Part shown: one piece after another, positions 8,891 to 37,433 of the stretch
How the letters are laid out: each line of letters begins with the position of its first letter
Numbering within the stretch: position 1 is the stretch's first letter
Origin: a virus
Reading direction: 5' to 3' (one strand)
Virus record (IMG/VR): IMGVR_UViG_3300028654_000037
Location: 1 to 38,152 of that record
Length of the DNA stretch: 38,152 nt
Translations under genes and position numbers: made by a program
The notes under the pieces: model-generated
Seen by the model: the letters and a program-made list of their open reading frames with translations, nothing else
What the model was told of the DNA's origin: nothing
The model's database searches: none

Positions 8891-10641
8891 TGGCTGATTT
8901 CTCGTCAATCGGTGGAACGCCCGCACATACGGGCAAAATAGACTTCTCTGCCATAGGTGGAACTCCAATGGTGGGGGGAGATGAATCCGCAGACGACACC
9001 ACAGCCCTCGGCGCGGCCGGGCGCGGTGCTGTCGGCATGTTGCCAATGGGCAACCAGGCGTACTCTGCCATTGCTGGCGCGGCGGAGAAGAAACCATACC
9101 TACAGGAACGCCAGGAGCTTGAAAAAGAGATAGCGTCCGATGCGGAGAACCATGAACCGTCTCGTTTAGTCGGCCAAGCCGCTGGAATAGCGGCTCCCGC
9201 CTTGCTTACAGGCGGTTCTAGCGTCCCAGAGAGCCTTTTAGGCGCGGCAGGTCAAGGAGCGGCCGTTGGGGCTGGATTTGGGGCAGGAAACGCGATAGAT
9301 ACGCTTGCTAGTGGGGGCTCGGGGGTTAAGGCGGCGGGGGATGTGGCTTTAGGCGCGGGACTTGGCGCGGCGGGCGGGGCAATAGGGCAAAAGCTCGCGG
9401 GAGCGGCCGAATCGGCTGTTCCAGGTATCGAAACCTATGCGGCGAAGAAAGCGGCCTCGGCTGTGGGCATGGGGTCCGACAAACTGGGCAATATGAGCCA
9501 GCAGGAGCTTATTGATACCGGCAAAATGCTCATGGACAAGGGCATTGTGAAGCAGGGCGCATCCACCCAGGAGATGTTTGACACGGCTAAAGGTTTGCAT
9601 GAGCAATATGGCGATAAAATAGGACAGATTGGCAATCAAGCGACAGATTTAGGCTTGACTGCCGATACAAAGCCAATGCTAGATGCTTTGCAAGAAAAAT
9701 TCCAGGCCGCTGATGCGCTTCAAAACCCAGACGAAAGAAAGGCCGCTCTTTTTTATAAACGGGGAGCAGCCGATATTCTCGCCATGGCAAAACAAAATGG
9801 GGCAGAACGCGTTGGTCCAGATATTGTCAAAGCGGATATGGCTCCAAGTTTTGTCACATTCGACCAGTTACAACAACTAAAGAAGTCCTATGGGAATTCT
9901 GCGTTCGAGAATGGCGCAGTGAAGAATCCAGCTGCCGCCGACATCTATGGTCAACTCAGCGCGGGTCAAAAGGCCATCGTGAATAAGGCTTCCGGTAATC
10001 CCAATCTGCCAAACGATCTGAAAGATGCCATGAGTGGCTATTCCAAACTTTACCCGGTCGTGGACGGCCTGCAAGATGTCCTCGGCCGCGAACGGGCGGG
10101 AAATATGCCCACGAAGGGATTTGGTATGATCGGGAAACTCGTCGGCCAGATGCCAGGGCAAAGTAATCCCGCCATCAATGCTCTTACATCTCTTGGGCTT
10201 ATGGGGGCCGGTCATCCTCTCTGGGGGATTGGTGCGGCAACCGCTACGATGCAAAATCCTCGCGCTATGTCTACGATGGCGCAAGGCGTTGCAAATGCTA
10301 TCCCCGGCATTGCGGGAAAGCTACCGATGGTCGGGGCACAATTGGGCGGTGTGGCATCGGCACAGAATATGGGGGAGACGAAGCCCATTCACACGAACGA
10401 TTCGACGCTAAAAACACCGGGAAATAATGCTCCTACTACAGTCAATGTTAACCATCCCGCGTTAGCCCCCTGGAAGCAGACATTCCAGAAGAATGCCGCG
10501 CAGGCGAAAGATGCAGGCGAGGTACAGAAGTCGCAGGCGGTGACAGACTTCGTTTTAAGCCAGCGTGATCCATCCTACGCGGCGGCGAAGCAAAAGATGT
10601 CAGATAATCCGGTTACGGAGAACAGCGATGCCCAGTATTGA
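8890..10641 (+). CDS. Internal virion protein with DFSxIGG N-terminal repeat
   Basis: 583 residues; its ATG overlaps the preceding TAA by one base (TAATG). It opens with two copies of DFS(S/A)IGGTP about 17 residues apart, a pattern seen at the start of other large phage internal proteins. A Gly/Ala-rich stretch with zipper character covers about residues 95-175, then a long helical central region (EKFQAADALQNPDERKAAL and so on), then a second Gly/Ala-rich stretch near residues 430-490. No lysozyme or transglycosylase motif seen. Most likely the last of the ejection-protein set. Confidence 0.65.
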   Translation: MADFSSIGGTPAHTGKIDFSAIGGTPMVGGDESADDTTALGAAGRGAVGMLPMGNQAYSAIAGAAEKKPYLQERQELEKEIASDAENHEPSRLVGQAAGIAAPALLTGGSSVPESLLGAAGQGAAVGAGFGAGNAIDTLASGGSGVKAAGDVALGAGLGAAGGAIGQKLAGAAESAVPGIETYAAKKAASAVGMGSDKLGNMSQQELIDTGKMLMDKGIVKQGASTQEMFDTAKGLHEQYGDKIGQIGNQATDLGLTADTKPMLDALQEKFQAADALQNPDERKAALFYKRGAADILAMAKQNGAERVGPDIVKADMAPSFVTFDQLQQLKKSYGNSAFENGAVKNPAAADIYGQLSAGQKAIVNKASGNPNLPNDLKDAMSGYSKLYPVVDGLQDVLGRERAGNMPTKGFGMIGKLVGQMPGQSNPAINALTSLGLMGAGHPLWGIGAATATMQNPRAMSTMAQGVANAIPGIAGKLPMVGAQLGGVASAQNMGETKPIHTNDSTLKTPGNNAPTTVNVNHPALAPWKQTFQKNAAQAKDAGEVQKSQAVTDFVLSQRDPSYAAAKQKMSDNPVTENSDAQY

Positions 10642-10801
10642 TAAGCGTGTGGGTCATTTAGAAGAGACGGTTGAAAAACATCTGATCGAATCTGGCGAGA
10701 TTCGTGCAGATTTGAAATGGTTGAAGAAGTTTATGTGGTTTGTGGTGAGTTCACCATTCGTAGTGGAGGGCATTAAGCACATTCATCTGGCGGGGAAATA
10801 G
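10628..10801 (+). CDS. XhlA-like small membrane-associated protein (possible holin accessory)
   Basis: 57 residues; ATG 10628 overlaps the previous gene by 14 bases. The first 35 residues form a charged heptad-like helix (VGHLEETVEKHLIESGEIRADLKWLKK), followed by a short hydrophobic segment (FMWFVVSSPFVVEGI). This coiled coil plus single C-terminal hydrophobic stretch is the XhlA-type layout. It sits between virion genes and the DUF5675 gene, where lysis genes are often found. The hydrophobic segment is short for a true membrane span, so holin function is uncertain. Confidence 0.55.
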   Translation: MPSIDKRVGHLEETVEKHLIESGEIRADLKWLKKFMWFVVSSPFVVEGIKHIHLAGK

Positions 10802-10803
10802 CT

Positions 10804-11364
10804 ATGGGAGATAATGTATGGACGCAACTATTTGTCCAGGCTGCAAACTTTCTATCGTCCCTATCCGCATCTTCGAGCGTAGCCCAAAATCCGCCCAATG
10901 GTGGCGCATTTCCAAGTGCCCCCGCGAACGTTGCGGCTACAATCTCGACCTCGACAAATGCGACGCGCCTGGAACTAGTTTTAAATCGGAAGGAGACGGA
11001 GAACGGAGGTATTTTCGGGACGATACAGGCGGGAGATGGTAGCAGATTTACCTGTCTATCTTTGGAGAATCAGGCTTTATCAATTCCAACGGGGCGATAC
11101 GAAATCGAAATCTACGACTCTCCTCACGCAGGACATCCCTTACCACGTTTGAAAAATGTACCTGGCAGAACCGAGATAGAAATACACTGTGGAAATATCC
11201 CCCAAGATAGTAAGGGCTGTATAATTGTCGGGGATCACCGCGCAGGGGGCACTCTAGAGGATTCTCGGACGGCATTTGATCGTCTATTTCCATTGATTCG
11301 GGCAGCTATAGCGACTGGTCCACAGTGGATAGAGATTGTCGGTGAGGACATACGCCCTTGTTAA
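10804..11364 (+). CDS. DUF5675-family protein
   Basis: 186 residues, 3 bases after the XhlA-like gene. Residues 1-52 are a low-complexity Ser/Ala/Asn lead. From about residue 55 the DUF5675 pattern is clear: LELVLNRKE, then 'Fxx(L)SLENQ', IPTGRYEIEIYDSPH, PRLKNVPGRTEIEIHCGN and DSKGCIIVGDHR. The family is frequent in phage lysis regions; its activity is unknown to me, though the conserved His and Cys in 'IHxGN...GC' recall L,D-transpeptidase-like folds. Its last 59 bases overlap the convergent HNH gene. Confidence 0.75.
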   Translation: MGDNVWTQLFVQAANFLSSLSASSSVAQNPPNGGAFPSAPANVAATISTSTNATRLELVLNRKETENGGIFGTIQAGDGSRFTCLSLENQALSIPTGRYEIEIYDSPHAGHPLPRLKNVPGRTEIEIHCGNIPQDSKGCIIVGDHRAGGTLEDSRTAFDRLFPLIRAAIATGPQWIEIVGEDIRPC

Positions 11365-11701
11365 AGCCCTTAGCGAGGTTGCAGTTAAAACAAAGAATCT
11401 GATACCTAGTCTTATCCCACCCGAGCTTTTTAGCAAGCTTCTGACCAACTATACCGGCACTCCTTCTAGTGTTTCTCTCCTTCCACCCGTCGTTATTGAT
11501 GTGGTCTAGTGAAAGAAATCGTTTATCATTGTAACCACAACACGCACAAGCACTACCAAGGCAGGAAAACATCTCTGCCCGAAAAGTTAGCGCATATTTT
11601 TTGCGATTAGCTATGGCTCGATCCCGATTTTTCCAGTACCACGATTTCCCACGCCTTATCTCTGATTCTCTATTGGCCAGATATTCTTCCCGTCTCGTCA
11701 C
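11306..11701 (-). CDS. HNH endonuclease (putative homing)
   Basis: 131 residues starting with GTG at 11701, which overlaps the TGA stop of the upstream 36-residue gene as GTGA. A basic N-terminal helix is followed by the HNH core: CACCGYNDKRFLSLDHINND, then YQILCFNCNLAKGFNKGVCPH, giving two Cys pairs and the DH catalytic start. It is the last gene of the leftward block and runs 59 bases into the convergent DUF5675 gene. The small size and intrusion between genes fit a free-standing homing endonuclease; activity is unproven. Confidence 0.75.
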   Translation of the reverse strand: MTRREEYLANRESEIRRGKSWYWKNRDRAIANRKKYALTFRAEMFSCLGSACACCGYNDKRFLSLDHINNDGWKERNTRRSAGIVGQKLAKKLGWDKTRYQILCFNCNLAKGFNKGVCPHRQSLSTVDQSL

Positions 11702-11808
11702 TTTAGCATCCCGTAGAGTTTAAGTATCTCCCTCGCCGCGAACCATTTCAGCACCTCCGCCAGAATTACAGCGTTACCCCATAGAAAACTTTTCAGTATA
11801 GTTGTCAT
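11698..11808 (-). CDS. 36-residue amphipathic small protein
   Basis: ATG at 11808 is preceded by a strong SD (GGGAGGGGAA) and overlaps the stop of the 61-residue membrane gene as ATGA; its own TGA overlaps the GTG of the HNH gene. The product (MTTILKSFLWGNAVILAEVL...) is hydrophobic to amphipathic with a basic tail. No family recognised. It may be a small lysis or membrane peptide, by location and character only. Confidence 0.5.
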   Translation of the reverse strand: MTTILKSFLWGNAVILAEVLKWFAAREILKLYGMLK

Positions 11809-11990
11809 TTCCCCTCCCCGGCCGTCAATCCCGCCTCTGGCAGCGTAAACTGCTTCTTCCTCGCTGTCTTCTTCCTATACAACTCCTTCTCATAGACAAT
11901 CTTATCGAAGTCGTACTCCCTAATCAGAATCCAAAGAATCCCGGCGTCTAGCAGCATACAAACAATGGCGATCAGTCTGTCCCAGGGCAT
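11805..11990 (-). CDS. 61-residue single-span membrane protein
   Basis: Start ATG 11990 has GGGGG a few bases upstream; a longer version from 12017 lacks an SD. Residues 6-23 (LIAIVCMLLDAGILWILI) form a clear transmembrane span, followed by a charged tail (REYDFDKIVYEKELYRKKTARKK). The topology of short N-terminus, one span and charged tail resembles inner-membrane spanins or small holin-like proteins, but 61 residues is short for a spanin. Part of a cluster of tiny overlapping frames beside the secreted protease. Confidence 0.55.
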   Translation of the reverse strand: MPWDRLIAIVCMLLDAGILWILIREYDFDKIVYEKELYRKKTARKKQFTLPEAGLTAGEGK

Positions 11991-11998
11991 ATGTCCCC

Positions 11999-12082
11999 CT
12001 ATTGATGCGCTATCCATAGATATACGGCGATGAGCATGAGATAATAGGCCCCCACCACATATTTTACCTCACTATCGCGCAT
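11999..12082 (-). CDS. 27-residue single-span peptide
   Basis: Begins at ATG 12082, overlapping the last codons of the 31-residue gene, and ends with TAG at 11999. The product is MRDSEVKYVVGAYYLMLIAV plus YLWIAHQ, one hydrophobic span after a charged lead. SD is weak. Supported mainly by its place in a chain of overlapping small hydrophobic frames, so moderate to low confidence. Confidence 0.38.
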   Translation of the reverse strand: MRDSEVKYVVGAYYLMLIAVYLWIAHQ

Positions 12083-12167
12083 TTGCCACCACCATGTAGA
12101 GTGCATTCAGCATCCCTGCTCCCACCGCCACGAAAGTGACAATCGCAATCAACCAGAATATTTTCAT
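12072..12167 (-). CDS. 31-residue single-span peptide
   Basis: ATG at 12167 overlaps the TGA of the protease gene as ATGA. The product is almost all one membrane span (MKIFWLIAIVTFVAVGAGML...). The start has a signal-peptide-like basic first residue pair but no cleavage site. It is the first of four tiny frames downstream of the protease and is probably translated by coupling. Function unknown. Confidence 0.45.
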   Translation of the reverse strand: MKIFWLIAIVTFVAVGAGMLNALYMVVANAR

Positions 12168-12820
12168 CGCAGAAACTCCTTCACGTCATCTATTCCTACC
12201 GCCAAAGATATTCCTTGCCAGCCAAAGAACCCCACCGTCATTGTATTCACGCCAACAAGCTCTCCCTTCGTATTGAATGCCCCGCCACCGCTAGACCCAG
12301 GATTAATCATGGCCGTCGTGATAAGGTAATGCGACGTAAAACCATGGGCGTGATAGTTAATCGCGCCGACGATACCTTCTGACACCACGAATTCAAAATC
12401 AAGCGGCGACCCTATATTGAATATACTATAGCCACGCTTGGGCAGTTTCGCCAGGCGCACATATGGATGACTATAGGGAACTTCAAGCAGCGCGAGGTCT
12501 TTTGCGGCCGAAAGTCGAATAACGTGAACCGGATACCCGACGCTCTCATTCGGCCCCCTCGCCCAGACATATTCTATGGGCAGTTCAAAGCAATGGGCAG
12601 CTGTTAGGATATGCGTGGGGTCCACGTACGTCCCCGAGCAGCCACCACGCATTCTGTGCCCATTTTGATCCTTGTACGTTTTCATTCTCAGCAGAACACT
12701 CGCATCTAATGCGCGGGTAATCACTTTTGGAGCCATAGCGACAGGGCGAGTCGTGAGAGTTTCATACGCGCGAAGACATAAAACTGCGAACAGTGACCAA
12801 ACGATAATCCTAGTCTTCAT
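12164..12820 (-). CDS. Secreted trypsin-like serine protease
   Basis: 218 residues with an AAGGAG SD before ATG 12820. Residues 3-18 are a hydrophobic export signal (IIVWSLFAVLCLRAYE), either signal peptide or N-terminal anchor. The chymotrypsin/trypsin-fold catalytic triad is complete: His76 in ILTAAHC, Asp108 in AAKDLALLEV, Ser177 in NPGSSGGGAF. Cys61 and Cys77 are placed like the disulfide that brackets the catalytic His. The protein should act outside the cytoplasm, probably in the periplasm. It lies between replication genes and tiny membrane peptides near the DUF5675 gene. A role in lysis, envelope remodelling or defence against host factors is inference. Confidence 0.85.
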   Translation of the reverse strand: MKTRIIVWSLFAVLCLRAYETLTTRPVAMAPKVITRALDASVLLRMKTYKDQNGHRMRGGCSGTYVDPTHILTAAHCFELPIEYVWARGPNESVGYPVHVIRLSAAKDLALLEVPYSHPYVRLAKLPKRGYSIFNIGSPLDFEFVVSEGIVGAINYHAHGFTSHYLITTAMINPGSSGGGAFNTKGELVGVNTMTVGFFGWQGISLAVGIDDVKEFLR

Positions 12821-13028
12821 TTTTCGGCTCCTTTTTAAACCCTATTCCGAGGACTTTCTTGCCGCGTAGGCGATTCTTTATGTCTTTATCATTCAGTTTT
12901 ACGGCCCGAAGCTCATAAACCAATTCTTTCAATATAGCTATGCGTTCTTCCTCCGTGACCGCTTTTCTGGCCTCGCGTCGCCGGAAAAACTCTTCGAGCG
13001 TATCTACATCCACTTGAAAGCCTTCCAT
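12810..13028 (-). CDS. Small charged protein, unknown
   Basis: 72 residues from ATG 13028, which overlaps the exonuclease stop (TAATG); GGTGA lies upstream. The product is strongly charged and helical (LEEFFRRREARKAVTEEERI) with a basic C-terminus. No Cys pairs and no membrane span. Overlaps the protease start by 11 bases. Family not recognised. Confidence 0.6.
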   Translation of the reverse strand: MEGFQVDVDTLEEFFRRREARKAVTEEERIAILKELVYELRAVKLNDKDIKNRLRGKKVLGIGFKKEPKNED

Positions 13029-13789
13029 TATTTCACCTTCTCGCCCGTGGCCCATCCGCCACAGCTCTGGCATTGATATCGCTGATACCTGGCTTTATTC
13101 TTTACAGCGACACCACGCCGCTGCATCCGTCCTTTGTCCCCACATACTTTACATAACACCGACGCTTTTTCAGCGATAAACGGGGACGGCATAGACTCGG
13201 GAGCCCATGCCCGTATTTTCATGTAAAGTTCTTCGGTCGCCAGGACATCGTGTTTATTATATATTTCCATTTCTTTCCAGGCTTTCATGTTCCCGGCGAG
13301 GCATTCCGTCCACAACTTCATCCCTGGAAACTTTCTATGCTTCAGCTTTTTATACTTCTTGCACAATACCCCCGACAGATATTCGAGACTGTTCGACGTG
13401 AAACACGCGATGCGCCGGGCCAGTCTGTAGGTATCGAAATGCCGATATGGACTCGGGGGCATCATGCCGTTCAAAATGAATCTGGCATTAAGTTTGGGAC
13501 TGTCGAACTTCTGCCCGTTTTGGGTGATGACAATATCTGCCTCGTCTAGGAGCTGCCACAAAGGGACGAGAATTTTCTTGTCATTAGATAGGTCTTTCGC
13601 ATGGCGCTGATCGTAGTAGATAATCTTTGATGCGGGGTCACCAAGCCATTTAGCCGACCACGCCAGGACTGACCAATCGCTCTTGATCTGGTTGACGGCG
13701 ATGTTCTGGTCATAACGACCCCACACATAGGCAACGGTGGGAGATGTCTCTATGTCCATCGTAAGAACTTTTAGGTCGGGAGTTTTCAT
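13028..13789 (-). CDS. DEDDy 3'-5' exonuclease with C-terminal zinc ribbon
   Basis: 253 residues. RNase H-like exonuclease motifs are complete: Exo I MDIETSP (Asp12, Glu14), Exo II ITQNGQKFD (Asn91, Asp96), Exo III YNKHD (Tyr177, Asp181, the DEDDy spacing). A zinc ribbon follows (Cys213, Cys216, Cys240, Cys243). The family A polymerase upstream also carries its own exonuclease motifs, so this one probably serves repair, recombination or RNA/DNA processing. The SD (AAGGAG) lies inside the end of the LAGLIDADG gene. Resembles YprB-type RNase H-like proteins. Confidence 0.8.
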   Translation of the reverse strand: MKTPDLKVLTMDIETSPTVAYVWGRYDQNIAVNQIKSDWSVLAWSAKWLGDPASKIIYYDQRHAKDLSNDKKILVPLWQLLDEADIVITQNGQKFDSPKLNARFILNGMMPPSPYRHFDTYRLARRIACFTSNSLEYLSGVLCKKYKKLKHRKFPGMKLWTECLAGNMKAWKEMEIYNKHDVLATEELYMKIRAWAPESMPSPFIAEKASVLCKVCGDKGRMQRRGVAVKNKARYQRYQCQSCGGWATGEKVK

Positions 13790-13790
13790 T

Positions 13791-14126
13791 CTATATCTCC
13801 TTTTTATCCAAACATATAGACGCTTGAGCTTTCTTTACGGGGGTTAAAAACGGCCACATGCGACGAAGAACCGCTTTAGCCACTTTTCCATAGGCATAAT
13901 ACTGATAGTATTTCTGTTTATTTGCCGAATACGGACCGTAGGGACCTCTAACGACTCCAAGCCCACCTATAAATCTCCGAAATCTAAGCAATGGCTGTTT
14001 ATGAACCTGGGCGATGGCTACCTGGGCTATAGAAACCTGTTTGTACTTAGGATTTCTACTATGAAAACTAGTAGACCCTTCGCCATCAAAGAATCCCGCG
14101 CACCAAGAATAGTGAACTTTGCTCAC
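13791..14126 (-). CDS. LAGLIDADG-type homing endonuclease (putative)
   Basis: 111 residues from GTG 14126, overlapping the upstream TGA as GTGA. Residues 8-19 (WCAGFFDGEGST) are a LAGLIDADG motif in its 'AGFFDGEGS' form, with the catalytic acidic residue in place. Only one motif is present, so it would act as a dimer. Short for the family, but the rest (VAIAQVHKQPLLRFRRFIGG...YYAYGKVAKAVL) keeps the usual beta-helix pattern. Free-standing between a zinc-ribbon gene and the exonuclease. Confidence 0.72.
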   Translation of the reverse strand: MSKVHYSWCAGFFDGEGSTSFHSRNPKYKQVSIAQVAIAQVHKQPLLRFRRFIGGLGVVRGPYGPYSANKQKYYQYYAYGKVAKAVLRRMWPFLTPVKKAQASICLDKKEI

Positions 14127-14398
14127 TCGGTCCCCTTTGTAAAAAACCCGAACTTAGTGCCGCGCGTGTTCCAATCATCATACAATTCTCTGCGCGTCGC
14201 GTTGATATATCGAGTGCGGACAAGCGGCTTGGGGTCCTTCGGGTCCCCTCCGTATCTAAGATAATCAAAGCCGCCATCCACCATAGTACCGCCACAATTA
14301 CACAAATGGTAATCGTGATGTGCTCGACTATAAATCTCATCGGCGCAGCAACCACATGTGACAGTTGTCACGCGTGTTTTAATGGGTTTCTTCTTCAT
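14123..14398 (-). CDS. Zinc-ribbon protein, DUF7695-like
   Basis: 91 residues. The N-terminal part holds CGCCADEIYSRAHHDYHLCNCGG followed by TMVDGGFDYLRYGG, the pattern of a small phage zinc-ribbon family often named DUF7695. ATG 14398 lies inside the end of the previous gene (overlap about 20 bases). Probably binds zinc; the role is unknown. The C-terminal 40 residues are basic and polar. Confidence 0.65.
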   Translation of the reverse strand: MKKKPIKTRVTTVTCGCCADEIYSRAHHDYHLCNCGGTMVDGGFDYLRYGGDPKDPKPLVRTRYINATRRELYDDWNTRGTKFGFFTKGTE

Positions 14399-14549
14399 GC
14401 TGTTCCTCCACGATCACTTCCATGAGAATATTGGCTCCCAGCATCATCTCGTAAACCACCTGCAGGGCTCCAAGACGACCAACGTGCTTGTACATGGTTC
14501 GCATCTCAAATTTCAACTGCGCGATGTCCAATTCTGTCGGCTCGTTCAT
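14379..14549 (-). CDS. 56-residue small protein, unknown
   Basis: ATG 14549 overlaps the HNH stop as ATGA. The product (MNEPTELDIAQLKFEMRTMY...) is helical with an acidic end (EEQHEEETH). Its stop lies about 20 bases inside the next gene. No family recognised; credible because it exactly fills the gap between two genes. Confidence 0.55.
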   Translation of the reverse strand: MNEPTELDIAQLKFEMRTMYKHVGRLGALQVVYEMMLGANILMEVIVEEQHEEETH

Positions 14550-14944
14550 TCTCTTGCCCCCCGGCGTGCTGCATTTTCAAGTCCAGATTTAATTTTATGG
14601 CATGGTTTACAAAGAATCTGTAGCTTATGCGCCTGGACAAATGTGCGATAGACCAATACATTCATGTCTTTGGCTTGTGGCTCAAGATCGTACAGTTCGC
14701 TGTTCGGTGCCAACGGCCAGCCGGTCAAAGGAATGATCGGCTCAATATGGTCACATTGCGTGTCGCCCATCTCAAACAGTTTCGTGCATGAAGCGCAAGG
14801 AACGACCCATTTGACTCGTTGATTCGGCCAATCTGCTGGCCTCGGGATGCGTACCGCTGCATACGCCTCCGTTCTCGCCCGTATTTTGTAGCTCAGTCGC
14901 CTTATCGCGTTTTTGAGGAACGCTGACAGAACAAACTTTTTCAC
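14546..14944 (-). CDS. HNH endonuclease (putative homing)
   Basis: 132 residues from GTG 14944, overlapping the upstream TGA as GTGA. A basic N-terminus precedes the HNH domain: VVPCASCTKLFEMGDTQCDH, IEPIIPLTGW, and then LQILCKPCHKIKSG, with both Cys pairs and the catalytic DH. The zinc-binding and His residues are intact. Coupled on both sides (GTGA in, ATGA out). A homing role is inferred from size and position. Confidence 0.75.
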   Translation of the reverse strand: MKKFVLSAFLKNAIRRLSYKIRARTEAYAAVRIPRPADWPNQRVKWVVPCASCTKLFEMGDTQCDHIEPIIPLTGWPLAPNSELYDLEPQAKDMNVLVYRTFVQAHKLQILCKPCHKIKSGLENAARRGARE

Positions 14945-25028: not shown

Positions 25029-25574
25029 TTATAGCCGTACGCTTAAGAATATAGCGGGTTCCGGCTTGCTAATTCCCGCGATGGTCAACGGGTTGATGCC
25101 AATATTCAGCGACGTATTGCTCCAAAAATTCCAGCCGATAGATAGCATCGGCTGAAACGCGGGCTTACGATTGTCCGCCGTCCATCCGAACGATGCGCCC
25201 GCGTCGAACTGACGGAAGTAGAACAGGTGACAGCCGACATAGGCGCGTCCTGTATCACTGTAGCCGACGCCCAAGAATGGCCGCAACTCAGTGCCCCACG
25301 CATGCGCATCCACTTTCACTGTGCCATCTTTGCGTATTTCTACAGCCCCGTCACGGCTGTACTGCCGCGTAGTGCCTTTATCCGTCGTCACCGTCACCGT
25401 ATGTCTGTTCACGTCGAATGATACAAGCTCTTTATCATTCGCTGGTAGCGTGACATGCGGCGGCATGAGCACGTCGCGTATGTGCGCTTTTAAGTAAAAA
25501 TAGCCCCCAAGCAAAAGGGCAACTACCGCGCCGATGACGGCGAGTGTGTGCTTGAAATGGTCTGATAGTATCAT
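25029..25574 (-). CDS. Membrane-anchored protein with barrel-like C-terminal half
   Basis: 181 residues, AGGAGG SD. Residues 8-28 (HTLAVIGAVVALLLGGYFYL) are one membrane span. A polar segment (about 35-95) follows. The last 90 residues alternate hydrophobic and polar residues in strands (FLGVGYSDTGRAYVGCHLFY, MLSIGWNFWSNTSLNIGI, AIFLSVRL), like an outer-membrane strand set. Such a mix is unusual; it may span the periplasm or only resemble a barrel. Envelope role such as superinfection exclusion is inference. Confidence 0.58.
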   Translation of the reverse strand: MILSDHFKHTLAVIGAVVALLLGGYFYLKAHIRDVLMPPHVTLPANDKELVSFDVNRHTVTVTTDKGTTRQYSRDGAVEIRKDGTVKVDAHAWGTELRPFLGVGYSDTGRAYVGCHLFYFRQFDAGASFGWTADNRKPAFQPMLSIGWNFWSNTSLNIGINPLTIAGISKPEPAIFLSVRL

Positions 25575-25912: not shown

Positions 25913-26308
25913 TCACACCCTCCCGCGAGCTATCGCCGCTTGACAATACACTGTAAGAAACTTTACCGCCCGATTTACATACACTTGTACACTACCCTTG
26001 GAAATGCCCAACACTTCTGCTGCTTCGGCGAGCGATTTCTCTTCCCGCATAATAAGAAGATAGCATTCTTTCTGCCGTCCCTGCAAGTGATCTATGGCTT
26101 CTCCCATGAGAAGTTGTGGTGTGGAAGGTGCAGCGATTTCCGTTTCGGGCAACACGTCAGGGTTAGCCTGCGGATGTTCGCGCGCTGTGCCATCATGCCC
26201 TTCACCATGCCGCGCTACATCGTCCCAATAAGAACTCTGCTCCGTGTGTGATGAGTCCTTACGGCTTTGGATCACGCGTGTCTTTTGAATCTTCACATGC
26301 TTAGACAT
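25913..26308 (-). CDS. Sigma-region-4-like HTH regulator
   Basis: 131 residues from ATG 26308 (GAGG upstream, TAATG overlap). The N-terminal 60 residues are polar and disordered. The C-terminal third (LQGRQKECYLLIMREEKSLA, EAAEVLGISKGSVQVYVNRA, VKFL) is a helix-turn-helix with the 'AEVLGIS...SVQ.YV.RA' pattern of sigma70 region 4 or ArpU-type regulators. No region 2, so not a full sigma factor. It may bias host polymerase toward certain phage promoters. Confidence 0.68.
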   Translation of the reverse strand: MSKHVKIQKTRVIQSRKDSSHTEQSSYWDDVARHGEGHDGTAREHPQANPDVLPETEIAAPSTPQLLMGEAIDHLQGRQKECYLLIMREEKSLAEAAEVLGISKGSVQVYVNRAVKFLTVYCQAAIARGRV

Positions 26309-27696: not shown

Positions 27697-28476
27697 TTAT
27701 TTACCCCCCCGGCGATTTTCGTTTTTCATATCGGCCACAAGCCGCCGTAATTCGTCAATCTGTGTCTCTTCATAGCTTTTGCCTAGCTTGAGCATGACCT
27801 TTACGCCTATCGCATAATTTCGCCCGTTGGTAGCATCATAGGCGTCATAGGCGATAGCAGAGACATGCCGGGAATCGAAGAATCGGATATCGGCCTCGGG
27901 CATGACCTTTAGTCGCTCTAGATTGTTCACCCTATCCCCTAGCGCGCCTACGTTCCTATTCGTGGCGTCTATCTGGGCCTGTAGCGCATTATCTCCTGCT
28001 ATGCGGCCCTGAGTCTCATTATCTAGCCCCGCGTTCAATCCTGCTATGCTAGCGGCCTGCCCTTGGTCTGATAACCGATTGTATTCGGACGTTAGGACGT
28101 AAACGTCCTGGGCCTTAGTCGGGTCACCGTCTAGCCCCATGAATGTAAGTTTTGTTAGTGGTACATCCGTCGGCAACGGCTGATTGTATACTGAACTATA
28201 ACCATACCCAGTCTGAGAATTAGGGTTATAGTCATAAGCTTTCGTATATCCGGCGATAGCAAGTTGATTCTTCACCGCGTTTTCTTCGACGTAATCATTT
28301 GCGCCTAGGCTTTGCGTAGGCGTTTGAAACGTGCTAATGCCGTACCTATCGCTCAGCGAATTGAGGATCAACTGGCTATCATGCTGCCCATATGTATCTG
28401 TGCCGAAATTCCACCCGGCGGACGGCGGTTCCGCAAAGACAACGGCAGGTAATAGTACTAGCAATAGTTTTTTCAT
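27697..28476 (-). CDS. Exported YadA-like outer-membrane protein
   Basis: 259 residues with a textbook signal peptide (MKKLLLVLLPAVVFA, cleavage before EPP). The middle is Asn/Gln/Gly/Tyr-rich. A short coiled coil follows (ALQAQIDATNRNVGALGDRV, NNLERL), then a strand-rich segment ending in YAIGVKVMLKLGKSYEE and a charged helix (DELRRLVADMKNENRR). Coiled coil plus terminal strands recall trimeric autotransporter anchors. Points to a Gram-negative host and an envelope role such as surface change after infection; function inferred. Confidence 0.65.
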   Translation of the reverse strand: MKKLLLVLLPAVVFAEPPSAGWNFGTDTYGQHDSQLILNSLSDRYGISTFQTPTQSLGANDYVEENAVKNQLAIAGYTKAYDYNPNSQTGYGYSSVYNQPLPTDVPLTKLTFMGLDGDPTKAQDVYVLTSEYNRLSDQGQAASIAGLNAGLDNETQGRIAGDNALQAQIDATNRNVGALGDRVNNLERLKVMPEADIRFFDSRHVSAIAYDAYDATNGRNYAIGVKVMLKLGKSYEETQIDELRRLVADMKNENRRGGK

Positions 28477-33717: not shown

Positions 33718-35190
33718 ATGACTGATGCCGAGAAGGCCATCGAAGCCTCTTGGCAAGTAGGGCGGCTGTACGTTCACCTGAATCCGAGTCAGCGGAAGAT
33801 TTACGATGCGTTCAAGTTGAGCATCGGGAAGAACTCTAAATTCGTGGTGAACTGCAGCCGCAAGATCGGGAAGAGCGTTCTTGGTCTGTTTCTGGGCGTG
33901 GAAACGTGCATCGCCAAGCCAAATTCATTGGTGGCGTTCATCGCACCGACCGTGGATGATGTTCAAGAATACGTCCGGCAGCTATGGGATGTGGTGTTTG
34001 CCACATGCCCGGAGCATCTGAAGCCGAAGCTACGGCGAACACAGATTGTGTTCCCAAATGGCTCCAAGATACTGTTCCGGGGCGTTGGCAAGGGTGTGGG
34101 AACGTCCTACAACAATTTGCGTTCTTTTGCCTTTGATTTGATTATTTTGGACGAAGCGGGGTTTAGTGCCAACCTGGACGAGATAGTTGACGGAGCCCTG
34201 GTTGCCACGCTTATACCGCGCAACGGGAACATGCTTCTGCTGTCCACACCCCCCGTCACGCCTGACCACGCGTTTAAGGGCTATTGCGATCAGGCGGAAA
34301 TAGACGGGGCCTATATGAAGCTCACCATACGAGATAGCCATTACTCGATGGAGAGGCAGGAGAAGTTCATCAAAGACCTTGGCGGGATACTCTCCCACAA
34401 GGTAAGGCGGGAGTTCTTTTGTGAATTCGTCATCGATACGGACTTCCAGCTGTGCCCAGAATGGAAGCAGGAATATGAAAAAGAGATACCAAAGACGGAC
34501 AATTTCAAGTGGTGGTTCAAGTATGATGCGCTGGATCAGGGCTGGACAGATAATTCTGTATGCGGGTTTGCTTCTGTGGAGTGGAATGGGGGTAAGTCGG
34601 TTATAGTGTTACGGGATGAAGTGTGCATGAAGTCGCCCGAGCAAACGACCGATCTGCTCGCCGAAAAGATCATCCTGAAAGAGCATGAGGTGTTTGAAAA
34701 TGCGGAGATCAAGAAACGGATTGCGGATAACAACACGCCTTCTCTGTTGCAAGACTTCAACCTACGCCATCACCTTTATTTTTCGCCCGTGGAAAGTAAA
34801 ACGTACTTGGACGTTATGGTTTCCGACGTTCGTGAGCTTGTCAAAGAAGGCCGCGTAATTGTCAGTCCTAAATGCGTTCAAACGCTCGGATGCCTCAAGA
34901 ATGGTGTGTGGACGAAGACGAAAGGGGGAGCGCGGGGGAAGGAATTTTCGCGCTCAAAGACGTTTGGCCACTATGACGGTTTCGCAATGCTGATGTATCT
35001 AGTCCGCAGCGTGGATATGGTGAAGAATCCGCTGCCACCGGCATTCAGGCACAATGAAGAGAACACATTCATCCCGAAAAAGATACTTGAGGGCGACACA
35101 GCGGCAATCCAAGATATAGTGGGCGCGGGAATGGATGCCGCATTTGCCCAGGAATTTAACGCAAAAGAGCACGACGAATCTTATGACTGA
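33718..35190 (+). CDS. terL: Terminase large subunit
   Basis: 490 residues. ATPase: Walker A VNCSRKIGKS (residues 44-53, the terminase form SR(K/Q)xGKS), Walker B LIILDEAG (141-148), coupling motif LLLSTPP (172-178). Nuclease half: ALDQGWTDNSVCGFASV around Asp272, ADNNTPSLLQDF, and HYDGFAMLMYLVRS near residue 421, in line with the RNase H-like terminase nuclease. It drives DNA packaging through the portal encoded downstream. Length is typical. Confidence 0.93.
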   Translation: MTDAEKAIEASWQVGRLYVHLNPSQRKIYDAFKLSIGKNSKFVVNCSRKIGKSVLGLFLGVETCIAKPNSLVAFIAPTVDDVQEYVRQLWDVVFATCPEHLKPKLRRTQIVFPNGSKILFRGVGKGVGTSYNNLRSFAFDLIILDEAGFSANLDEIVDGALVATLIPRNGNMLLLSTPPVTPDHAFKGYCDQAEIDGAYMKLTIRDSHYSMERQEKFIKDLGGILSHKVRREFFCEFVIDTDFQLCPEWKQEYEKEIPKTDNFKWWFKYDALDQGWTDNSVCGFASVEWNGGKSVIVLRDEVCMKSPEQTTDLLAEKIILKEHEVFENAEIKKRIADNNTPSLLQDFNLRHHLYFSPVESKTYLDVMVSDVRELVKEGRVIVSPKCVQTLGCLKNGVWTKTKGGARGKEFSRSKTFGHYDGFAMLMYLVRSVDMVKNPLPPAFRHNEENTFIPKKILEGDTAAIQDIVGAGMDAAFAQEFNAKEHDESYD

Positions 35191-35356
35191 GATGACTCCT
35201 TGTGATTTTGTAAAGGCTGGCACTACGGATGCCAAGAACTTCGGCGAATTTCTGGCTCATGTAGCCGACTGCAAAGACTGTCAGCGTAGGGTATTTTCGC
35301 GCATTATCATTGAATTTAAGCAGAAGCAAATGGAGATAACTAATGGCCAGCGGTAG
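35183..35356 (+). CDS. 57-residue HxxxCxxC protein between terminase and portal
   Basis: ATG 35183 overlaps the terminase stop; the end overlaps the portal start by 14 bases. FGEFLAHVADCKDCQRRVFS has an HxxxCxxC site as in zinc-binding anti-sigma domains, and CDFVKAG adds an upstream Cys. Its 3' end carries the portal's SD. Function unknown. Confidence 0.6.
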   Translation: MTEMTPCDFVKAGTTDAKNFGEFLAHVADCKDCQRRVFSRIIIEFKQKQMEITNGQR

Positions 35357-37433
35357 CATGAACTCGAAGACATTTGGCGGCGAACCCGATCAATATTTCG
35401 CCACGCTACCGGTGGAAGATCTCCTCCAAGAATGCGAGCGGCGCAAAGATGATTATCAAGATTACGTTCTCCGCACTGGCAAGCTAACCGTTTGGCGCAC
35501 CAACTGGGAAATGTGGATGCGTTCGGAGATGAAGATTGGCATAAGATTTGGGGGTGACCGTGGACAGTACAAGCTCATTGAATCAAACATTTACCGCTCT
35601 ATCGTCACCGGGTTGGTATCGACTATCGCCAATCAGCGGCCGTCCTTTCAGCCCGAGGCGATCAACGACGATCATAAGAGCATGTCCCAGGACATCATCT
35701 TTGATTCAGTAAGCAATTATTATTTAAAAGTGAAGCACATGGAAGACGCCTACAAAATGGCGTTGACCTATGGCCTTGTCACCGGCGAAGGGTGGATGTT
35801 CGAGAAGTGGAACGCGGATATTGGCGAGGTGGTAGACACGGTACAGGACGTGAAGACGGGCAAAGAGGTACCAATTAAAGAGGGCGACTTCCAGTATGCT
35901 GTACTTGGACCGATGGATGTCATTCGTGACTACACTCGTATGGATGTGGATAATGATTGGTACATCGCGCGCGAATACCTGAATAAGTGGGACTTGATAG
36001 CCCAGCGACCCGACCTGGAAGATGAACTGAAGGGCTACAGTATGCCCACGACCCTACAGCGTTTCCGCTTCGGGCATATCGTGGACGCCCAGACTTCAAA
36101 CTCCGATCTTATTCCCGTCTACACGTTTGTCCATAGAAAGACAGCGGCCTGTCCCCAGGGCCGCATCACTCAGTACATAGACTCCGATACATGGATTCTC
36201 GACACCGCGCTTCCTTACGATGAGATTCCGCTGTACCCGATGCTCCCCGACCAGACATTATTCAACAATTTTGGTAGCACCGTAATGACCTCCCTTGTCA
36301 AGCTGCAATATGCGTATGACAAAACTCTTAGCGTCATCGTTACCAATCAGCAAGCCTTCGCCATTACCAACATCGTCATCGACGAGTCTACTCAGACTAA
36401 ACCAGAACAGGTGATTGAAGGCTTGAATTTTATCAAAACGAACATGAAGAATGGCGTACCAATGGGTCTAGAACTTTGCAAGACCCCGGCCGAAATTTTT
36501 CAGTTCTTAGAATTACTCGAAGCACAAATGGAGAAGTTAAGTGGACTTCCTAGCATTCTTCGCGGACAACCCCCGACTGGGGTTGAATCTGGTACTGCCA
36601 TGGCCTTTCTGCAAGCGCAAGCACTTGTATTCAATTCGCCTATTCAACAGGCGTATATTAGTTTTCTTGAACGCTCAGCCACAGGACTTTTCAATATGCT
36701 AAAGAGCTTCGCCAACACGAAGCGGATGATTACGATTGCCGGTCAGAGCAAGTCATCCTACATGGGTGAATTTTCTGGCGATGATCTCTCGAACATCTCA
36801 CGCGTCATTGTGTCGGCCGGAAATCCTGCCACGCGATCAGAAGCCGGGAAGCTACAGATAGCGCAGGATTTGATGGCGAAAGGTCTAATCAAAGACGCGA
36901 ATCAGTATTTTGAAGTGCTGGCGACTGGCGAGCTAGACCCCATGACGGAGGGACCGGAAGCTGAGAATATGCTCATCATCAAAGAGAATGAGCAACTTCG
37001 GCGCAGTATTCCGCAAGTAGCGGCTCCTTGGGACAACCACGCCAATCACATCAATCAGCATTTTGTGATTATGATGGACCCAGCTCTCCGACAGAAAACG
37101 AATGACCCGGTATTCGCTGCCACCATGCAACACATTATGTCCCACGCGCAGTTTCTATTCCCTGGCATTCAAACCCCCACTGATCCTCGTTTGATGGGCC
37201 TCATGGGAAACAATGTGCAAGGACCGGCACCGCAACAATCGCCGCAGCAACAGCCGACACCACAACCAGTAGCAAATCCGATGCCCGCCGCCGGACCAAA
37301 TGGTGGCCCTAGTCTGGCCGCCCCACGACCGCCGCACGCCCCAATTTTACCAGGCAAGTCGTCGCCTGCTACCGCTAATGCGGCGCAACAACTAAACCAC
37401 GCGGTGACCCCGCAAATGCCCGGAGGAAAATAA
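35343..37433 (+). CDS. Portal protein (P22-like, podoviral length)
   Basis: 696 residues, ATG 35343 with GGAG 7 bases upstream. The order matches long P22-type portals: N-terminal helical and wing part (LTVWRTNWEMWMRSEMKIGI, ESNIYRSIVTGLVSTIANQR), a beta core (FQYAVLGPMDVIRDYTRM), a long stem helix region (LEAQMEKLSGLPSILRGQPP, ESGTAMAFLQAQAL). A Pro/Gln/Ala-rich C-terminal tail (about 615-696) is probably disordered. It is the DNA entry ring and docks the terminase. Confidence 0.82.
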   Translation: MASGSMNSKTFGGEPDQYFATLPVEDLLQECERRKDDYQDYVLRTGKLTVWRTNWEMWMRSEMKIGIRFGGDRGQYKLIESNIYRSIVTGLVSTIANQRPSFQPEAINDDHKSMSQDIIFDSVSNYYLKVKHMEDAYKMALTYGLVTGEGWMFEKWNADIGEVVDTVQDVKTGKEVPIKEGDFQYAVLGPMDVIRDYTRMDVDNDWYIAREYLNKWDLIAQRPDLEDELKGYSMPTTLQRFRFGHIVDAQTSNSDLIPVYTFVHRKTAACPQGRITQYIDSDTWILDTALPYDEIPLYPMLPDQTLFNNFGSTVMTSLVKLQYAYDKTLSVIVTNQQAFAITNIVIDESTQTKPEQVIEGLNFIKTNMKNGVPMGLELCKTPAEIFQFLELLEAQMEKLSGLPSILRGQPPTGVESGTAMAFLQAQALVFNSPIQQAYISFLERSATGLFNMLKSFANTKRMITIAGQSKSSYMGEFSGDDLSNISRVIVSAGNPATRSEAGKLQIAQDLMAKGLIKDANQYFEVLATGELDPMTEGPEAENMLIIKENEQLRRSIPQVAAPWDNHANHINQHFVIMMDPALRQKTNDPVFAATMQHIMSHAQFLFPGIQTPTDPRLMGLMGNNVQGPAPQQSPQQQPTPQPVANPMPAAGPNGGPSLAAPRPPHAPILPGKSSPATANAAQQLNHAVTPQMPGGK

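Follow-up and report, generated by a model that had tools for sequence, protein, structure and literature searches.

What would a phage gain from a protease of the trypsin fold that carries its own export signal? An open reading frame in an uncultivated virus genome raises this question. It was first read as a secreted, trypsin-like protease that might attack envelope proteins at lysis, or act earlier against a periplasmic host factor. We analysed the gene, the fold and N-terminus of its product, and the distribution and gene neighbourhoods of its relatives.

The protease gene and its surroundings

The window (the whole stretch of DNA that was analysed, IMG/VR virus record IMGVR_UViG_3300028654_000037) has 38152 bases and no end repeats. 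On the plus strand, the genes for the terminase (33718-35190) and the portal protein (35343-37433) lead up to the end of the record, and plus-strand genes resume at its start and run to a DUF5675 gene (Table 1). The minus strand encodes replication functions: DNA polymerase A, primase/helicase, two exonucleases, a methyltransferase and a region-4 sigma-factor-like protein. The protease gene lies at the downstream end of this minus-strand run, at the place where the run and the structural genes converge.

The protease reading frame is a real, intact gene, with a strong Shine-Dalgarno site, overlaps with both neighbours and a match to Pfam Trypsin_2. The stop of the upstream exonuclease and the start of the 72-aa gene share TAATG, the stop of the 72-aa gene falls within the opening codons of the protease, and the stop of the protease and the start of the 31-aa peptide share ATGA. 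Because starts and stops overlap at all junctions, these four genes form a single run, which leaves no room for an intergenic promoter. A search for phage homologues of the 72-aa protein found none. The neighbours had been described as tiny membrane peptides and a DUF5675 gene, and both gene calls and the PF18925 match agree; three such peptides come after the protease gene.

Other minus-strand genes of the window deserve mention. Several HNH and LAGLIDADG-type endonuclease genes are dispersed in the replication operon (11306-14944). The Sigma-70 region 4-like protein (25913-26308, E=3e-12) is a possible phage regulator of gene timing. A 259-aa protein (27697-28476) has a clear signal peptide (MKKLLLVLLPAVVFAEPP) and, as judged by eye, a coiled-coil and a YadA-anchor-like C-terminus; it has no Pfam or phage match. 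A 181-aa protein (25029-25574) has an N-terminal transmembrane (TM) segment and a C-terminal part that by eye resembles outer-membrane beta strands; searches with it gave no significant matches.

Table 1. Coordinates of the protease gene, its key residues and the neighbouring genes in the window.
Feature	Position	Strand	Basis or remark
Serine protease gene, predicted HtrA-type, 218 aa, ATG start	12164..12820	-	PF13365 E=1.8e-19; AF2 model; PDB matches
Shine-Dalgarno AAGGAG of protease, 8 nt upstream of ATG	12828..12833	-	
Cys61, partner of Cys77 (counterpart of trypsin C42-C58)	12638..12640	-	alignment
Catalytic His76	12593..12595	-	invariant
Cys77	12590..12592	-	alignment
Catalytic Asp108	12497..12499	-	invariant
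Catalytic Ser177 in INPGSSGG (172-179)	12290..12292	-	invariant
Predicted N-terminal signal anchor, residues 1-22	12755..12820	-	hydropathy 2.85; model helix 3-22
3'-5' exonuclease, DNA polymerase exonuclease subunit	13028..13789	-	phrog_403 E=3.8e-85; heads overlapping run
72-aa protein, no family known	12810..13028	-	87-aa alternative reading from 13073
31-aa single-TM peptide	12072..12167	-	AAGGAG 8 nt upstream
35-aa single-TM peptide	11999..12106	-	
61-aa protein (70 aa from 12017)	11805..11990	-	N-terminal TM, charged tail
36-aa amphipathic peptide	11698..11808	-	strong SD
HNH endonuclease, closes minus-strand run	11306..11701	-	phrog_2255 E=7.8e-8
DUF5675 protein, last structural-strand gene	10804..11364	+	PF18925; L,D-transpeptidase (YkuD) fold in model
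57-aa coiled-coil + hydrophobic C-terminus	10628..10801	+	XhlA-like layout (weak)

Fold and class of the protease

Comparison with HMMs of chymotrypsin-clan families gave 71.4 bits for Trypsin_2 (curated cut-off 27.6) and 40 bits for Trypsin (cut-off 20.6), and profiles of PHROG 9683 (protease) and 11383 matched with E of 2e-16 and 6e-18. A PA-clan double beta-barrel is strongly predicted by the AlphaFold2 monomer model (mean pLDDT 86, pTM 0.80). The top PDB matches of the model are all HtrA-type catalytic domains (best TM-score 0.73-0.76). Realignment gave Z 27.8 and an rmsd of 1.8 Å over 188 residues for AlgW, and Z of about 26-27 for DegP, DegQ and DegS, with rmsd values of 1.6-1.9 Å across the HtrA matches. 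A sequence profile search also returned HtrA as best match, in agreement with the fold. The protease domain spans residues 27-218, up to the protein end; the PDZ domain, a defining feature of HtrA/Deg, is absent, and the Do-family model scores 64.5 bits, below its cut-off of 416.

The triad (H76, D108, S177), the GSSGG loop and the bracketing Cys pair are where the original prediction had placed them. We aligned 17 phage proteins, of which one (L002) comes from an annotated phage record. C61, H76, C77, D108, G175 and S177 are invariant, as are G137, G178 and G190; most rows were picked by the CxG...LTAAHC pattern, so that selection explains in part why C61, H76 and C77 do not vary, while the invariance of the other six residues is independent of it. 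At the DNA level, the C...LTAAHC pattern occurs once in the window and in none of 100 shuffles.

The description as trypsin-like holds for the fold and fails for the specificity. The position of trypsin Asp189, six before the catalytic Ser, is occupied by Met171, that of Asp194 by Ser176 (hence GSSGG, not GDSGG), and INPGSSGG matches the active-site motif N-P-G-[NS]-S-G-G of HtrA/Deg (S1C). Given these three features, HtrA-type specificity is expected. The Cys pair flanking the catalytic His has the spacing of trypsin Cys42-Cys58. We class the protein with the Trypsin_2 proteases (PA clan); its catalytic domain is of the HtrA type, and we regard it as neither HtrA nor trypsin proper. Its PADLOC match to RT-Protease_XI (E=1e-8) most likely reflects the common protease domain.

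N-terminus and predicted location

We judged the signal sequence from hydropathy and inspection. K2 and R4 are followed by a hydrophobic core (residues 5-16), and the 12-residue mean hydropathy of 2.85 is equalled by 0.5% of shuffles; a value of 2.5 at the N-terminus is reached by 3.8% of background phage genes. This favours the export signal proposed earlier. By inspection, no convincing signal-peptidase site follows the core (AMA, then Pro), which makes a DegS-like signal anchor, left uncleaved, most likely. Of 29 relatives among the matches listed, 24 have a hydrophobic N-terminal segment and 13 carry a lipobox, a feature of 0.8% of background genes; others have cleavable signals. Their N-termini suggest that these proteases reach the membrane or periplasm repeatedly and in three ways: by an anchor, as a lipoprotein or with a cleaved signal. 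An oxidising compartment would suit the C61-C77 pair. The HMM matches, the fold and the signal sequence agree in predicting an exported, catalytically complete phage protease of the chymotrypsin fold, as originally put forward.

Relatives of the protease

Such proteases had been called rare among phages, which is overstated. The strict motif C-x-G-x8-LTAAHC is present in at least 119 stretches in IMG/VR, there are PHROG families, and named phages carry annotated members. Relatives of 190-262 aa number about 29 (non-redundant) among the IMG/VR motif matches listed. Several 'phage' matches were DegP/DegQ/DegS-type genes in bacterial-looking records, and were left out of the phage-relative count. 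A single-sequence scan of viral contigs retrieved no close relative of the window protease, and a scan of genome contigs gave one distant MAG match only; a second search found contigs L132 and L133. Among isolates, short homologues are found in Sulfitobacter phages, in Rhizobium phages RHph_TM3_3_14B, AF3 and P10VF, and in Sinorhizobium phage AP-16-3. In a tree of 31 proteases the window protein sits on an end branch of 2.17, in no supported set, and the tree is too deep to separate one capture from many. Several phages already have annotated members of this protease group, to which the window gene adds a divergent one. In the open-access literature we found no publication that studies an exported phage protease of the trypsin fold, and only mentions of such proteins in a genome survey (PMC10783043).

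Proposed role

We propose, with a probability of about one half, that the gene encodes a single-domain, PDZ-less HtrA-type serine protease of the PA clan, anchored in the inner membrane and facing the periplasm, which is made with the replication exonuclease and cuts host envelope proteins. The proposal starts from an observed frame, its residues, the gene overlaps and homology. Through the overlaps, translation of the protease would be coupled to that of the exonuclease. The Sec route would then insert the protein and leave its catalytic domain in the periplasm, as suggested by its N-terminus, its Cys pair and its relatives, and a C61-C77 disulfide would stabilise the domain there. Since the PDZ domain and Asp194 are both absent, no activation trigger should be required: the enzyme should be active upon export, without peptide-triggered or zymogen activation. 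Because the gene belongs to the same overlapping run as the replication exonuclease, the protease would accumulate before or during DNA replication, a timing that we infer solely from strand and overlaps. Its predicted location points to host envelope proteins as substrates. Our first choice of purpose is that the envelope is prepared for later stages of infection, presumably by weakening it ahead of lysis and/or by clearing proteins that hinder the phage.

The Pfam, PHROG and fold matches, a complete catalytic triad that relatives conserve, the Cys pair, the hydrophobic N-terminus (also frequent among relatives) and the overlapping gene run all favour this envelope reading. A further argument comes from another contig (L021), in which an exonuclease of the same type (44% identity) lies just upstream of the protease, with one small TM gene between them. 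More generally, protease neighbourhoods differ among relatives and include lysis cassettes, a portal gene and replication modules, the last in the window, L021, L082, L052, L056 and L075. The lysis-cassette cases also favour the envelope reading, while the mixture itself, without enrichment of membrane neighbours, speaks against it.

Lysis and other explanations

Envelope attack at lysis by the window protease is possible. In its fullest form, this explanation makes the protease a dedicated lysis protein, one of a set with the three tiny membrane peptides and the DUF5675 murein enzyme that ruptures the envelope when infection ends. The protease could, for example, cut proteins tying the outer membrane to the wall, replacing spanins or acting beside them, with the peptides being holin- or pinholin-like. 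We regard this as conceivable though not probable. Several relatives favour it. In Sulfitobacter phages the homologue comes after genes for an endolysin, a membrane protein and XhlA, and that of RHph_TM3_3_14B comes after lysozyme, Rz-like (spanin) and lipoprotein genes. In contig L043 the order is holin-like gene, SAR endolysin, small TM gene, protease, Rz and nested Rz1, the holin, Rz and Rz1 being assigned from layout, not from HMM matches. This compact cassette (L043:1462-3324) encodes its protease as a trypsin-fold lipoprotein with GDSGA.

The strongest candidate for a murein enzyme in the window phage is the DUF5675 protein. Across 33 sequences, its H128 and C139 do not vary. Its model (pLDDT 83), realigned with VIA-align 2, matches L,D-transpeptidases and carboxypeptidases (Pgp2, LdtMt2, Csd6, DpaA, Tlde1a) at Z 8-10, against 2.6 for the next unrelated chains; the fold emerges only from this realignment, as plain Foldseek gave nothing significant, and a profile search of the PDB gave no match. 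Homologues in crAss-like phages are labelled putative transpeptidases, and one is encoded ahead of a holin. DUF5675 genes abound in phages, with at least 433 confirmed loci. Small TM neighbours occur at 42 of 67 DUF5675 loci (63%, against 27% in the background), which also favours a lysis role. So does the search of the window for standard families of endolysin, holin or spanin, which retrieved none and in which one list gives the best 25 of 27 families.

Against this stand the strand of the protease gene, opposite to that of the structural genes and DUF5675, and its coupling to a replication gene; a purely lysis-timed role is for these reasons not favoured. Across the protease family, TM and lysis neighbours are not enriched: small membrane proteins adjoin 8 of 30 protease loci, no more commonly than in the background (27%), and among 89 neighbouring proteins no lysis family was matched by two or more members. 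Since neighbour counts equal the background, we rejected lysis as a general rule for the whole family; some members may have such a role. As a separate observation, a similar 141-aa multi-TM protein is encoded after the protease in two rhizobial phages (L128:5537-5962 and L130:4698-5123), directly or one small gene away; in RHph_TM3_3_14B it has a borderline match to MotA/TolQ/ExbB (E=1e-4), just under the cut-off.

The likeness to AlgW, DegS, DegP and DegQ, and a layout of anchor and protease that amounts to DegS minus its PDZ domain, raise another explanation, envelope quality control or tampering with stress signals. The protein would either be an additional HtrA, dealing with envelope proteins that are damaged or overloaded, or cleave an RseA-like anti-sigma factor in the manner of a DegS without PDZ. 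Its strong divergence (21-28% identity) and the lack of a conserved partner make this unlikely. Superinfection exclusion or receptor shaving, in which receptors, or the injection proteins of newly arriving phages, are destroyed by a protease in the periplasm, would agree with the early or middle expression and membrane tethering that we expect. Exclusion lipoproteins are known, and the lipoprotein forms among the relatives are placed like them. We consider this role quite unlikely here. A virion or capsid maturation protease, suggested by the position of the L131-L133 genes directly after a portal-like gene in the packaging module, is highly improbable given the export or lipoprotein signals (in L131-L133 too), a fold unlike that of known prohead proteases and a gene outside the structural operon here.

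The preferred reading, in which an anchored protease made with the replication genes cuts host envelope proteins, has a wider implication that we put forward tentatively and with considerable doubt. Membrane-tethered HtrA-type proteases could be an unrecognised, recurrent phage tool against host envelope proteins, sometimes as a fourth component of the lysis cassette, and here as a coupled module of protease and tiny membrane peptides made with replication genes. If so, the four-component cassette would consist of holin, endolysin, protease and spanin. Were it routine for phages to have an always-on HtrA-type protease in the periplasm, envelope proteolysis would join murein cleavage and membrane holes as a phage strategy. 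The arrangements in L043 and in the Sulfitobacter phages make the idea directly testable for lysis.

Comparison with known systems

The window protein differs from prohead proteases by its signal anchor, its chymotrypsin fold and its position outside the head block, a distinction already drawn in the original prediction. With trypsin proper (S1A) it shares the fold and the Cys42-Cys58-type pair, and it lacks Asp189, Asp194 and GDSGG. It is a divergent member of PHROG 9683 and 11383. The nearest proteins found, from IMG/VR contigs L131 (= L027), L132 and L133, are 31-36% identical over their full length and have the triad and the Cys pair, but carry a lipobox or signal peptide instead of an anchor and are encoded after a portal-like gene. 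The Trypsin_2 proteases of Sulfitobacter phages pCB2047-A, pCB2047-C and NYA-2014a are about 31% identical over residues 48-191, with the same size, a signal sequence and the same Cys pair. Their signal is cleavable, unlike the anchor of the window protein, and their gene lies within a lysis cassette (endolysin, XhlA). Those of Rhizobium phages RHph_TM3_3_14B, AF3 and P10VF (annotated trypsin-like), and the AP-16-3 homologue, are also short exported trypsin-fold proteases; unlike the window protease, those of RHph_TM3_3_14B, P10VF and AP-16-3 are devoid of the Cys pair. Finally, HtrA/Deg proteases (MEROPS S1C; DegS, AlgW, DegP, DegQ) share with the window protease the double beta-barrel, the His-Asp-Ser triad and the INPGxSGG loop. 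The window protease differs from them in being phage-encoded, at 21-28% identity, without a PDZ domain and with an added C42-C58-type Cys pair, and resembles DegS in its N-terminal anchor.
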